From contig NZ_CP009553.3 of assembly GCF_000767615.3 (NCBI RefSeq), forward strand, positions 434,001-498,000: a DNA stretch of 64,000 nt, given 5' to 3'. How positions within the stretch are numbered: the first letter of the stretch is position 1; every line of letters starts with the position of its first letter. This document shows positions 12,046 to 46,121 of the stretch, one piece after another. The stretch is from Pandoraea pnomenusa. GTDB lineage: Bacteria; Pseudomonadota; Gammaproteobacteria; Burkholderiales; Burkholderiaceae. Both the position numbers and the translations under genes were made by a program. The notes beneath the pieces are model-generated. The model saw only the letters and a program-made list of their open reading frames with translations, was not told the DNA's origin and ran no database searches.

Positions 12046-12122
<77 letters not shown>

Positions 12123-12196: not shown

Positions 12197-13225
12197 TCAT
12201 CGGGACGGCTTTACCGGGCGTGCGCCACGCGAATAATGGGCGGTCATCCCCGGCGTTGTGTGGCCTGCAAGACGCTGCGCCTCCTCCAAGCCCGACTCGA
12301 TCGCCTTTCGCGTCACGCTCCGCGCACGCAAGTCCCGGAACTGAAAATCCGCCTTGTCAATTTTGGCTTTGTCGCGCGCGTTGTCGAACCGCGAGCGCAG
12401 TTGGCCGCGCGTAAGCGGGTGCCCTTTCTCATCGCGCAGCAGGTACGGCGAGACGTCGACCTCGCTTCCTCGCCATGCCTGCAACGCATCAACGAGTTTC
12501 TTCAGCTCGCCGGTCACTTCGATAACGACAACGTTGCCGGTCTTCGCCTGCGAGAACCGAAGGTATCCGTTCGATATGTCCGTGCGCCGAACGGCGAGCA
12601 GATCGCCGGGGCGCTGGCTCGTCAGGTCTGCCAAGTCCATCGCGTTGCGAAGCGGTTGGTCGGCGTGCTTGTAAACGGCGTCGTACAGTTCGTCGGAGAC
12701 AAGCACGCCCTTGCGGCCGGTCTCTTTACGGCCACGAATACCGGCGCACGGGTTTGCCTGTGTCATGAGACCCCACAAACGGGCCTGATTTAGCGTCAAC
12801 GACAACACCGCCTTGGTGCGGTTGGCGGTGACGACGCCGCGCTTCTCTGCCGTTACCTGCCAGATTTGGGCAACGTCCGCAGGGCGGATGTCGTCAAGAG
12901 CGCGCTCGCCTAGTGTGCCTTGCAGGCGGGTGAGTATGATGTCGTAGAGGCGTCGCGTGGACAGCGCCTTGGCAGGCAACTCCTTCTTGCGATATTCGGT
13001 GACCAGTGCGGCAAACGTCGGCCGCACGTCGACGGCCGCGGAAGTGCGCAGCCCTTCGATCTCCGCCCACTTGACCAGTGCAGCTTGTCGGTCGTTGCCG
13101 AGCGGCTCCAAGATGCGCTTCCCGTCCGCCCAGCCGTGGTCGTAGTAATAGCGCACCGTCCCGTTGTCATTCACGCGGGTCCGGAAATTTGGAATCGCAC
13201 CGGGGTTGTTTGGCTTTCGTCCCAT
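12197..13225 (-). CDS. int: Phage integrase, tyrosine recombinase
   Basis: 342 aa. It should catalyse integration into and excision from tRNA-Thr. The N-terminal DNA-binding part is followed by a catalytic domain whose active-site residues appear as Arg in LTSQRPGDLL, the FRDLRARS motif with the second Arg, His in LAGHTTPGMTAHY and the Tyr nucleophile in HYSRGA. The gene points towards attL, 75 bp away, and overlaps no other gene; the small DUF4224 gene ends immediately upstream, a pairing typical of integrase-excisionase cassettes. Confidence 0.93.
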   Translation of the reverse strand: MGRKPNNPGAIPNFRTRVNDNGTVRYYYDHGWADGKRILEPLGNDRQAALVKWAEIEGLRTSAAVDVRPTFAALVTEYRKKELPAKALSTRRLYDIILTRLQGTLGERALDDIRPADVAQIWQVTAEKRGVVTANRTKAVLSLTLNQARLWGLMTQANPCAGIRGRKETGRKGVLVSDELYDAVYKHADQPLRNAMDLADLTSQRPGDLLAVRRTDISNGYLRFSQAKTGNVVVIEVTGELKKLVDALQAWRGSEVDVSPYLLRDEKGHPLTRGQLRSRFDNARDKAKIDKADFQFRDLRARSVTRKAIESGLEEAQRLAGHTTPGMTAHYSRGARPVKPSR

Positions 13226-28698: not shown

Positions 28699-29694
28699 AT
28701 GAAGCAGAGCCGCCTAAGGCGCTCTACGCCCCCCACACTCGCCGCTGCAATTTCGCGTTACCTCGCAGAGGTGTCGCCTCTCAAGAAGAGCCAGACTGCC
28801 GAGCAGTCTATCGCCAGGACATGGCTGGCCACCCGCATTGCGGGGCGGCCAATCGACAGAATCAGGAACACTGACCTCATTGCGCTGCGGGACGAATGGG
28901 CCGAGGCGAGAGCAGCCGCCACGGTGGTGCGAAGGCTTGCCTTTCTGTCACACGTCTACACCGTGGCCCGGAAGGATTGGGGATGGACGGAACTGGCCAA
29001 CCCCGTGCAACTCGTGCGCCGCCCGACGGTCGATGACGCTCGCGATCGGAGAGTGATCAGCCGAATCCGCATGCGCGGGGTGTCAGCGCAGGACTGCCCT
29101 CGCAGTGAGCTGGAGTGGATTATCCAGTCCACGTCATCGCGGGAACTGCCGGTTATTGTGACGCTGGCTGCTGAGACGGCCATGCGCAGGTCAGAGATCT
29201 GCAGCATGCGGCGCGAGCATGTCGACTTGCTTCACGGCGTTGTGCATCTGCCTGACACGAAGAACGGCACTTCCAGAGACGTGCCGCTTACTCCCTGGGC
29301 GCGGGAGACACTGCGACAGTACCTCGCCGGCAGACCGCAGCGCGGACCGATCTTCACAGTGACGCCGGGCGCAGCAACGCGTGCGTTCATACGGGCTCGG
29401 GCGCGGGCGCGCACGCGCTACGAGGATCTGTGCCGATCGCTTGGGCGGCGCCCGAACCCGCTGCTCTTCACCGGTCTCCGGCTGCATGACCTCCGGCACG
29501 AGGCGACGTCAGTACTTGCGCCAATCTTCCAGCTCCACGAACTCGCGAAGATAAGCGGCCATAAGAGCACCCGCATGCTGTTGCGCTACTACCATCCGGA
29601 TGGCCGGGAGCTCGCAAGAAAGCTCGCGCGCAGCCCGCTCGGCCGTCGGCAGATAGCCCGCATCCGGGAAGCTCGGGCGAGCGACGATGCATAG
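28699..29694 (+). CDS. Rci-like shufflon recombinase (tyrosine recombinase)
   Basis: 331 aa. It resembles the R64 Rci recombinase strongly in the catalytic part: ETAMRRSEICSMRREHVDLL, HLPDTKNGTSRDVPL, LHDLRHEA and ISGHKSTRMLLRYY. These give the Arg, His-x-x-Arg, His and Tyr active-site set. It is not the phage integrase, which lies at 12197. It stands alone on the plus strand inside a minus-strand tail block, between the com unit and the fibre chaperone, and right beside four inverted copies of a 13-bp site in the fibre gene. Its role as the invertase of that region is inferred from family and position. The ATG at 28699 aligns with the Rci N-terminus; upstream frame is non-conserved. Confidence 0.85.
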   Translation: MKQSRLRRSTPPTLAAAISRYLAEVSPLKKSQTAEQSIARTWLATRIAGRPIDRIRNTDLIALRDEWAEARAAATVVRRLAFLSHVYTVARKDWGWTELANPVQLVRRPTVDDARDRRVISRIRMRGVSAQDCPRSELEWIIQSTSSRELPVIVTLAAETAMRRSEICSMRREHVDLLHGVVHLPDTKNGTSRDVPLTPWARETLRQYLAGRPQRGPIFTVTPGAATRAFIRARARARTRYEDLCRSLGRRPNPLLFTGLRLHDLRHEATSVLAPIFQLHELAKISGHKSTRMLLRYYHPDGRELARKLARSPLGRRQIARIREARASDDA

Positions 29695-29697
29695 ACG

Positions 29698-30048
29698 TCA
29701 GATCGTGTCCGAGGTGACAGGCGGTGGAGCGTCCAGAGTCAGCCAGGGCGGGATGGGACCGCCGCCCAGATAGGTGACGCTTTCACCGTCAATTTCCATT
29801 GCGGTGCCGAGTTGGTATTCACGACCGCTTTCAGCGACATAAAGCGTCTTGTCGCGATGGTCTTCCACGACCGACCACGTTGCTCCATCCCACATCGGCA
29901 CCTTGCCACTTTCGACGGTCGGCGGTTGCACTTCGACCGCGCCGTAGGGCACATTGAAGTTGCCGGGCGACAGGTACAACTCGTGCGCGGTGGCCGAATA
30001 CAGGAAGAACCCGTGCTCGTCGGTCTGATATACGGTCTTTTTTTCCAT
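29698..30048 (-). CDS. Tail fibre assembly protein or fibre cap (gpG-like position)
   Basis: 116 aa. The start MEKKTVYQTDEHGFFLYSATAHEL and the WDGATWSVVEDHRDKTLY stretch match small proteins found behind tail fibre genes in P2- and Mu-like phages, which help fold or cap the fibre. ATG 30048 follows AGGAGAG. The coding end is four bases from the recombinase stop, and the start is 24 bp from the outermost recombination site, so it lies just outside the invertible region and should stay constant. Confidence 0.85.
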   Translation of the reverse strand: MEKKTVYQTDEHGFFLYSATAHELYLSPGNFNVPYGAVEVQPPTVESGKVPMWDGATWSVVEDHRDKTLYVAESGREYQLGTAMEIDGESVTYLGGGPIPPWLTLDAPPPVTSDTI

Positions 30049-30071
30049 TACTTCTCTCCTAAAGGTACTTT

Positions 30072-30295
30072 CACTGCAAATGCGCGACGCTCGGACGCGG
30101 CAATCGAGCGCGAACTTGGAGCACACGCATTTGGTCAACGCTGTGTCTATCGGCCTGTCACGCCGCAGGTGTTTGATTGGTCCGCGAGACTTCCCGGCGG
30201 CGTCAATAACCTGTATTCGAACGCTGTAACAGCCGCCAGCGGCAACTCGGAGGCTCGCCGTAAACACTGCTTACGCACCGCGCATCCATGTGTAG
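30072..30295 (+). other. Alternative fibre segment 1 (site A)
   Basis: Silent C-terminal cassette. From site A the frame reads TANARRSDAAIEREL, later VFDWSARLPGGVNNLYSN, and near the end shifts by one base so that VNTAYAPRIHV and TAG appear in the next frame. One added C after GCTCGC would restore it. It needs an A-D inversion to be joined to the fibre gene. Confidence 0.75.
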
Positions 30296-30304
30296 CGTCC
30301 GCTT

Positions 30305-30554
30305 CACTGCAAATGCGAACGCTCGGCACGGCACAACGTGATGCAGATCAACGCGTGGTTGGCCAGGTCGGGAGCGTCAGAAACTGGAGTATTTCGGGCC
30401 GTTCCAAAGCGTCGGATCACCGATTTACTTCGACCGCGCGGCTGGACAGTCGGAGCTTTTCGTCAATTCGGAATTCGATAATTCACGCGTGATTCGTACC
30501 TCATCCGAGGCCCGTCCCTCTAACGTGGCCTATGCGCCTCGCATCCATGTTTAA
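30305..30554 (+). other. Alternative fibre segment 2 (site B)
   Basis: Silent cassette of unrelated sequence. It reads TLGTAQRDA after the site, then YFGPFQSVGSPIYFDRAAGQ and finally NVAYAPRIHV and TAA. The two parts are in different frames as written, and the site itself lacks one CG of the A/D version, so small indels separate it from an open fusion. Its TAA lies in GTTTAAAC, shared with the end of segment 3. Confidence 0.75.
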
Positions 30555-30773
30555 ACATGAATTCGGGAGCGTAGGCAGTGTGCTTCGGTGCCGTTTCCCC
30601 GGTCCCGGTGTAATCCGTCGCGGGTGTGTTTAGCACGCTGCTACCGGAGGCAAACGACGCCAAGTTGCCGCCGCTGACCGCACTGTTGAGGAAGCTGGTG
30701 CCGTTCTGTGCGGAGTGACGGTGCGATCGGATGGTGTCGATCTTGTAGGACCAGCGGCGTCGCATTTGCAGTG
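30551..30773 (-). other. Alternative fibre segment 3 (site C)
   Basis: Silent cassette, tail to tail with segment 2. It reads RRRWSYKIDTIRSHRHSAQN, then NLASFASGSSVLN and HTAYAPEFMF; one more C in the CCC tract turns the end into AYAPRIHV and TAA. It is a third, distinct fibre tip. Confidence 0.75.
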
Positions 30774-31978
30774 AAGCGGACGTACACATGGATGCGCGGT
30801 GCGTAAGCAGTGTTTACGGCGAGCTCCGAGTGCCGCTGGCGGCTGTCGCGTCGAATACAGGTTATGACGCGCGGAAGTCTCGCGACCTCAAACACTGCGG
30901 GCGTGACGGCCGATGACACGCGTTGATGCGTGTGCTCAGTTCGCGCTCGTGCCGCGTCCGAGCGTCGCGCATTTGCAGTGTCAGCGTCAGTTCCGGTGTA
31001 ACGGCGGAACATGTTGCGCAGGTCCGGTAGTCGAAATTGCGTGCCGCTGACATCCACGAAGTAGTGCGCACCGCGATTGCCGTCCCACGTCGCCTGGGGT
31101 ACCACAAGGTTGTTCTCCTGCGCGTATCCCCAAAGGCGCGAGTAGTCCGCCTTGCTCACCACCCCGCCCATGGCATCGACCTCGCTCGCCAGGGGCACAA
31201 GCGTGTGCCCGTCCACCGGGCGCCCACATAGCGGGGAGCGATAACCGGTGAAGAAGTTGGATGCCGACCAGATCCAGATCTCGCCGCACTCAGCGACGGC
31301 GATCGGGCCGATATTCTTCGTCGGCAGATCGAGAATCGAGAAGACGAGCGGCGTCTTGGCCTTCAGCGCGTACTGGGAGTGCGGGTCTTCGCCGTTCACA
31401 TGCGCGTCGAACGCATCCGAGATGGATTTGGCGACAGCCGTCTTCTTGGCGTACTGCGGATGAGGATCGTCGGCGTCGGCGTGGGCCTTCATCGCGACCG
31501 TGATCACCTTGTCGGCATACTCGCGCGTTGCCAGAACGACGCTCGGGTCGATCTTCAGTTCAACGTTGGCGACGCTGGAGACGATGATGACCATCCGCAC
31601 GCCTTGGGTCAGGCCCGACCCTTCTGCGAGTTTCGGCTTATACGTGGGCGGGGCGTTGGAGACGTAGCAGATGTCGCCATCCTCATCGATGAGGGCCATT
31701 TCGCGAATCCACTTGCCGCCCTCGTTCTCCGGGATGATCTGTTCGGCGATCAACTGAGAGGGATTCCTCGGATCGACTTCCAGAGAATTGAGCGGCGCGC
31801 GTCGCCATTCGCCGAGTAGTGCCTTTTGGTTGGGCTTCGGCGTGGGGATCGGTGCGTTGTCGCCGCCGCCGTCACCGACGGCCAGCGCCACGAACTTGCG
31901 GCGCAGGCCGAGGGCGATGGCGTTCGCTTCCTTGGCGTTCCCGATGTCGGTGGCGATGGTATAGAAGGTCGCGCTCAT
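30641..31978 (-). CDS. H: Tail fibre protein gpH with invertible C-terminus
   Basis: 445 aa as written. The constant part (residues 1-333) begins MSATFYTIATDIGNAKEANA, the baseplate-binding domain of P2 fibres, and runs through LCGRPVDGHTLVP and PDLRNMFRRYTGTDADTANA up to site D. Then comes segment 4 (about 66 residues, HTHQRVSSAVTPAVFEV ... AYAPRIHV). Its expected stop is lost because TAG reads TAC after a missing base, so translation runs through site C into segment 3 in a wrong frame until 30641. The natural end was probably near 30789. It overlaps gpI by four bases. Confidence 0.88.
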   Translation of the reverse strand: MSATFYTIATDIGNAKEANAIALGLRRKFVALAVGDGGGDNAPIPTPKPNQKALLGEWRRAPLNSLEVDPRNPSQLIAEQIIPENEGGKWIREMALIDEDGDICYVSNAPPTYKPKLAEGSGLTQGVRMVIIVSSVANVELKIDPSVVLATREYADKVITVAMKAHADADDPHPQYAKKTAVAKSISDAFDAHVNGEDPHSQYALKAKTPLVFSILDLPTKNIGPIAVAECGEIWIWSASNFFTGYRSPLCGRPVDGHTLVPLASEVDAMGGVVSKADYSRLWGYAQENNLVVPQATWDGNRGAHYFVDVSGTQFRLPDLRNMFRRYTGTDADTANARRSDAARARTEHTHQRVSSAVTPAVFEVARLPRVITCIRRDSRQRHSELAVNTAYAPRIHVYVRFTANATPLVLQDRHHPIAPSLRTERHQLPQQCGQRRQLGVVCLR

Positions 31979-46075: not shown

Positions 46076-46121
46076 TTTGTAATCATCAGGTGGCGGGTTC
46101 GAGTCCTGCAGCCGGCACCAA
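46076..46121 (+). repeat. attR, 46-bp core repeat
   Basis: Copy of the 3' part of tRNA-Thr, identical to 12077-12122. The upstream part of the tRNA is absent, so this is the right border of the prophage and not a second tRNA gene. Confidence 0.95.

Follow-up and report, generated by a model that had tools for sequence, protein, structure and literature searches.

The 64,000-nucleotide stretch of the Pandoraea pnomenusa genome analysed here (the window; G000:C1:434001-498000 within a single-contig 5.39-Mb genome) carries a P2-like prophage of ~34 kb, in which a tail-fibre gene region lies together with a gene for a tyrosine recombinase (window positions 28699-29694). On the basis of sequence comparison, this locus is most probably, at a probability of about 0.88, a tail-fibre shufflon, in which the C-terminal tip of the fibre would be swapped by an armless tyrosine recombinase. 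Comparison among relatives shows the architecture, exact site-to-site inversion and a two-way association of the sites with the enzyme, and we infer that the recombinase encoded at 28699 does the inverting. In the predicted mechanism, this recombinase would recombine oppositely oriented pairs of 12-13-bp sites and thereby invert the intervening DNA, bringing a different C-terminal cassette behind the constant part of the fibre, in frame at the site. Each site would open one cassette, and any cassette could complete the fibre because the cassettes would all end alike (ETRP-N-A-x-x-PRIHV type). The swapped tip presumably changes the receptor or host range of the phage.

The preliminary description of this DNA had placed four repeat copies, two in each orientation, inside the fibre region, and their exact positions are confirmed here; all are exact copies of CACTGCAAATGCG, at 30072-30084 and 30305-30317 on the forward strand (sites 1 and 2) and at 30761-30773 and 30968-30980 on the reverse strand (sites 3 and 4), site 4 lying in the fibre gene at the junction of its constant and variable parts (junction pattern at G000:C1:464969-464988). 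The 5.39-Mb genome contains exactly these four copies, all at the fibre locus, and the pattern read backwards gave 0 and 1 copies genome-wide. About 0.004 exact copies are expected per 64 kb against the four observed, and CACTGCAAATGCG is the sole 13-mer with at least four copies in the window. At least three sites in both orientations at a single locus, one of the features by which a shufflon was recognized, are present in the window itself.

The fibre gene reads leftward from 31978, with PF12571 at its start, and reaches the last site at 30980; its constant part (30981-31978, minus strand) was identified by matches to PF12571 (E 1.4e-47) and to phrog_327, a tail protein (E 4.5e-81), both obtained with the open reading frame (ORF) 30641-31978 as it stands. 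Among phage records, 294 match the constant part, none covering 80% of it. Leftward from the constant part, the locus consists of cassettes A, B2, B1 (on the opposite strand) and A again, followed by a fibre-assembly gene and the recombinase. Copy 2 of cassette A (30774-30980, minus strand) is joined to the constant part in the assembly; B2 (30551-30773, minus strand), which matches an intact cassette of a relative (L086_7377+) at 52%, stands tail to tail with B1 (30305-30554, plus strand), the stop codons of the two overlapping in a palindrome; and copy 1 of cassette A (30072-30304, plus strand) is in the unattached orientation with its frame interrupted. The two copies of A are the same cassette apart from gaps, their alignment having 206 matching positions, 19 gap openings and no substitution, so that the segments following 30072(+) and 30980(-) are one, and the earlier statement that a different segment is read from each site does not hold. 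The distinct cassettes are three (A, B1 and B2); four distinct tips, as had been proposed, were rejected because cassette A is present twice, and what survives of that proposal is the multi-segment tail-fibre shufflon with a tyrosine recombinase separate from the integrase, which is well supported by the relatives. Likewise, the ending AYAPRIHV plus stop, described as common to all segments, is found in A copy 1 and B1, but A copy 2 has AYAPRIHV without a stop, and the RIHV-stop of B2 is in a frame other than that of the rest of the cassette. The tail-fibre assembly (chaperone-like) gene (29698-30048, minus strand) matches phrog_105, tail fiber assembly (E 3.6e-9), and phrog_1807, tail fiber protein (E 7.1e-10), and lies outside the invertible DNA.

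None of the four window sites opens a cassette in frame from the site to the common ending; all window cassettes are interrupted, and the window copy could therefore be dead. A decayed shufflon, for which the mechanism proposed for the family is right but genuine frameshifts in the window cassettes have left the fibre dead, would also account for the presence of cassette A in two copies, but this explanation is regarded as unlikely. The copies of A differ by gap openings with no substitutions, which points to consensus error and not to decay. Ten other prophage ORFs nearby match those of a related genome (G027, locus L280) in one piece and at nearly full length, the fibre constant part doing so in two pieces. 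The same noise, confined to the cassettes, recurs between G027 and the related locus L005, whose inverted segment of 513 positions contains 8 mismatches and 41 gap positions between flanks that are nearly mismatch-free; L013 likewise has no clean cassette out of four. The cassette attached to the fibre in L005 corresponds to the unattached B1 of the window, L005 6804-7100 being inverted relative to window 30305-30597 at 71.6% identity, and B1 matches the intact L005 cassette (L005_7089-) in two successive frames, at 86% and 69%. The interrupted cassettes of the window probably reflect a consensus error made by forcing together reads of different isomers, and copy 2 of cassette A is probably a duplicate generated by mixed isomers. 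The window's own shufflon is probably active.

Intact cassettes are found in the relatives: in 18 of them, an uninterrupted cassette of 60-110 amino acids with the common ending begins at 75 of the 82 sites, providing alternative C-termini that complete one constant gene, and up to nine sites occur per locus (L010, L017, L255). In five loci (L012, L013, L014, L015 and L010), sites form divergent back-to-back pairs with a spacing of 24 bp, which gives double-ended segments a pair of their own.

Inversion between sites is directly visible in two pairs of relatives. In L234 and L235, IMG/VR records with different dataset numbers, a 474-bp segment between opposed sites is inverted, with 100% identical contents and ends lying on the sites, and its flanks are 99.97% identical over 2876 bp and 99.8% over 533 bp; L192 is in the same state as L234. 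G027 and L005 differ by an inversion of the DNA from site 2 to site 3, the flanks having 0 mismatches and 2 gap positions over 6624 bp, and 1 mismatch and 3 gap positions over 3942 bp; the recombinase is here 89% identical to that of the window. Moreover, the attached cassette of one relative is found elsewhere in the other in L246/L195 (flank 99.9%), L233/L217 (98.4%) and L189/L263 (95.5%), and L012/L015, L013/L015 and L016/L017 differ likewise in cassette placement, with flanks of ~93-97%. The preliminary description had proposed comparing related prophages for reshuffled orders, and inverted or rearranged cassettes, not one fixed order, were the outcome. Several pairs that have both an identical constant part and the same cassette (e.g., L197/L236, L199/L206 and L091/L248) weigh against the shufflon reading. 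In others (e.g., L012/L263) the cassettes differ, but neither was located in the partner sequence.

An assembly tends to stop at a point from which it could continue in more than one way. Among viral contigs with one junction, the contig ends within 300 bp of the junction on the cassette side in 26 of 77 and on the constant side in none of 77, and in genome G007 two contigs begin at the junction pattern or 65 bases before it. The contig ends on the cassette side point to mixed isomer populations, although short repeats could contribute in part.

The sequence of the site bears on a further rival explanation, namely that the repeats are kept for a protein motif, TANAR, and that cassettes are exchanged by homologous recombination with no site-specific enzyme. 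The 12-base site core, CACTGCAAATGC, indeed encodes T-A-N-A at the fibre junction, and the positions after the core appear partly coding-driven, with positions 15, 21 and 23-24 looking protein-driven. The core is, however, an uncommon codon choice, because ACT, GCA and AAT are rare within their codon sets: in ten prophage ORFs, including the recombinase and the fibre constant part, ACT accounts for 9 of 235 Thr codons (3.8%), GCA for 61 of 517 Ala codons (11.8%) and AAT for 27 of 138 Asn codons (19.6%). These codons are taken to be kept for reasons at the DNA level, as far as codon usage may indicate. Outside the core, 92% of the 155 contexts that were not classed as attached have a G at -7; these contexts had been de-duplicated at 85% and chosen with at most one core mismatch, so that the core itself is biased. 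With uncommon codons fixed in the core, an inversion in L234/L235 that ends on the sites and leaves the contents 100% identical, and a recombinase linked to the sites from both directions as described next, this rival explanation is very unlikely.

The association of sites and recombinase was examined first from the side of the enzyme. Recombinase relatives were taken as the best 80 of 423 from viral contigs and the best 80 of at least 544 from species genomes; together with 20 genus-search loci (one being the window's own) and the window, they gave 181 scored rows, some loci being duplicated across sources, and a site was called within one mismatch. Where the recombinase is at least 51.5% identical to that of the window, at least two sites are present in 25 of 34 rows, as compared with 2 of 147 below this level (L021 and L126), duplicate sources included; at least three sites are present in 21 of the 34. 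The nine rows at or above 51.5% without two sites are L006, L183, L168, L007, L089, L090, L029, L141 and L174, among which the L006 contig stops 365 bases past the recombinase, L141 and L174 are partial matches, and L089 has one site. At L090 8088-8695 (Castellaniella), two opposed cassettes starting with RTPANA stand at the contig end, suggesting a divergent site sequence in that lineage. From the side of the site, viral contigs were scanned with a pattern describing the fibre junction in DNA, which yielded 79 stretches; among the loci so found that have at least two sites and 2500 bases beyond the last site (L197 and L236 being copies of one sequence), the recombinase is present in 22 of 27, or in 16 of 21 when six contigs also found by the recombinase scan (L216, L220, L228, L242, L252 and L263) are omitted. 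In the host's family, the junction pattern occurs in 7 of 299 genomes examined.

Several observations count against a strict coupling of site and enzyme. Recombinases 79% identical to that of the window have no nearby site in L007, L168 and L183, of which L007 and L168 also lack a fibre match and lie in another context; L029, despite its fibre matches, lacks a site within one mismatch. Conversely, five of the 27 site loci (L194, L200, L224, L255 and L262) have no recombinase in the available sequence, genomes G016 and G009 have sites without a recombinase in the sequence taken, and the site-bearing group is weakly supported as a clade (93/20). In G016, an inverted pair of sites is present within a different P2-type fibre in two prophage copies (L276 8613-9042 and L277 9534-9963), which agree at all 3,020 bases surrounding the junction; this fibre is accompanied by an 83% identical assembly gene. 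The 19 kb extracted contained no relative of the recombinase, and the closest PF00589 gene located for either copy is ~62 kb off; these site pairs are possibly relics or served in trans. A 79% identical recombinase at L275 9529-10530 (G017), as also in L007 and L183, lies near relaxase-like and DNA methylase-like genes, as judged by eye; around it, neither sites nor matches to the window fibre genes were found nearby. Beside distant recombinases, ACAATGTGAACA occurs three times at L144 6870-8094 (Methylophilus) and AATCATGATGC four times at L139 2766-3048, both in both orientations, which may represent shufflons with different sites; a k=11 repeat scan beside the more distant recombinase relatives otherwise gave mostly scattered triplets, taken for chance.

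The G016 pairs also lend some support to the explanation that the recombinase at 28699 serves as a second integrase or comes from a satellite, with a different enzyme of the host driving the inversion; in addition, PF00589 is a general family, and the recombinase relatives, where named among the 120 rows listed, are mostly annotated as "integrase" or "tyrosine-type recombinase/integrase". Against this, the prophage already has an integrase at its attachment (att) site, the recombinase lies at most 50 bp from the fibre-assembly gene and at most 400 bp from the first site in the window, L005 and L279, and the large majority of the loci found by their sites alone carry it. We consider this explanation very unlikely. 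That the recombinase is itself the prophage integrase was rejected, as a distinct PF00589 integrase is encoded at 12197-13225 (minus strand; E 1.5e-11) by the att site; the two genes had been described as separate, and rightly so. A serine invertase was also considered; the adjacent gene is PF00589, and no search aimed at serine recombinases was made.

The recombinase, the presumed invertase (28699-29694, plus strand; 331 amino acids; PF00589, E 1.9e-18), has the catalytic R-K-H-R-Y residues and the tyrosine recombinase fold. It is an armless two-domain protein, whose residues 12-308 align to residues 74-356 of lambda Int, leaving no room for the arm domain. On plasmid R64, the tyrosine recombinase Rci acts on short inverted sites to swap the C-termini of pilV, with single- and double-ended segments, and the window protein had been called Rci-like. 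This is correct as regards the fold, the catalytic residues and an identity of ~36-40% to plasmid Rci, but not as regards Rci proper: plasmid Rci (L273; 389 amino acids) has a long C-terminal extension, the columns of which are mostly empty in the window protein, and in the tree it sits apart from the window recombinase, in another set of 14 rows (97/96) and on a long branch (1.56). The closest named relatives among the matches listed are Pandoraea contigs and proteins (L085; P0002, P0003 and P0006). A scan of 50,697 phage records gave 60 matches to the recombinase, every one of them under 60% identity, and the 40 rows listed contain nothing higher than 38%; E. coli genomes gave no match to the recombinase DNA.

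The system can be compared with known inversion systems. The Rci/pilV system of IncI-type plasmids (L273) similarly pairs a tyrosine recombinase with an adjacent gene that exchanges its C-terminus through multiple inversion, but the gene encodes a pilus adhesin there and a phage fibre here, in addition to the differences in the recombinase noted above. A closer parallel is the Rin shufflon of Bifidobacterium prophages (Bb423phi1 and others), in which a tyrosine recombinase shuffles the C-termini of a receptor-binding protein (PMC6109161). Both have a phage tyrosine recombinase distinct from the integrase and without an arm-binding domain, at the receptor-binding locus; short asymmetric sites (11 bp in Rin) before each variable C-terminal segment, behind a constant N-terminus; and a segment order reshuffled between related prophages (PMC6109161). 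They are set apart by site sequence, TTCCCTAACCC in Rin (PMC6109161) and CACTGCAAATGCG in the Pandoraea prophage; by the receptor-binding protein, which in Rin is distantly like that of Lactococcus phage 1358 (PMC6109161), whereas here a P2-like fibre with an assembly gene is involved; and by host, Bifidobacterium as opposed to Burkholderiales, in which relatives have up to nine sites. In the archaeal viruses PhiH1 and PhiCh1, the XerD-type tyrosine recombinase Int1 also inverts myovirus tail-fibre genes, but operates a switch between two related fibre genes from inside the invertible segment, and not a multi-cassette system (PMC6210493). The suggestion that a tyrosine-type, multi-segment version would be a distinct design is thus not supported, Rin having the same design, and PhiH1/PhiCh1 provide a tyrosine-recombinase switch of two fibres. 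Min of p15B, Gin of Mu, Cin of P1 and the gin shufflon of FRphi likewise swap tail-fibre C-termini by inversion, but are serine recombinases (PMC6109161, PMC13418256). Among these, FRphi, in which long reads show mixed isoforms and infection proceeds by one isoform only, may serve as the best functional analogy for the Pandoraea prophage shufflon, despite its serine enzyme (PMC13418256). In the accessible text of other reports, a Pf-5 prophage is said to have an Rci-like integrase, inversion not being mentioned (PMC2647930); tail-fibre inversions of prophages are reported for four Proteobacteria species, the present system not being named (PMC5903667); and serine invertases for fibres are treated (PMC8987985). 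A full-text literature search, from which subscription papers were mostly out of reach, found no report of a Burkholderiales fibre-shufflon family; the kind of tail-fibre shufflon seen here is known, and the large family to which the locus belongs was found undescribed in the literature searched. More tentatively, and with somewhat less than even confidence, the armless enzyme without the Rci extension may drive a widespread Burkholderiales fibre-tip module that inverts without deleting, and may represent a second, independent inversion-only solution at short asymmetric sites; in L017, seven plus-strand sites stand in a row, i.e., many sites lie in direct repeat within the array.

The P2-like assignment of the prophage is supported by P2-type capsid, terminase, sheath and baseplate genes (PF05125, PF05944, PF09684 and PF04865) and by attachment in a tRNA gene. 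The 46-bp direct repeats attL (12077-12122, plus strand) and attR (46076-46121, plus strand) bound it, attL overlapping the 3' end of the tRNA-Thr gene (12046-12121). An N6/N4 DNA methylase gene (PF01555; 27421-27909) adjoins the recombinase, and a counterpart is present near the recombinase in G027 as well. PADLOC was run on eight window proteins, not all of them encoded within the prophage, and gave no match.

Tyrosine-recombinase fibre shufflons, described in Bifidobacterium prophages, are extended by these findings to P2-like prophages of Pandoraea and to relatives in Bordetella, Herbaspirillum, Paracandidimonas and an Oxalobacter genome bin; in relatives, a phage has up to nine tips (L010, L017), and the enzyme is mostly annotated as an integrase. 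Such lysogens are predicted to release mixed phage populations, which would explain contigs and assemblies that break or become noisy at the fibre. The locus may also offer a compact system for asking how inversion is favoured over deletion.

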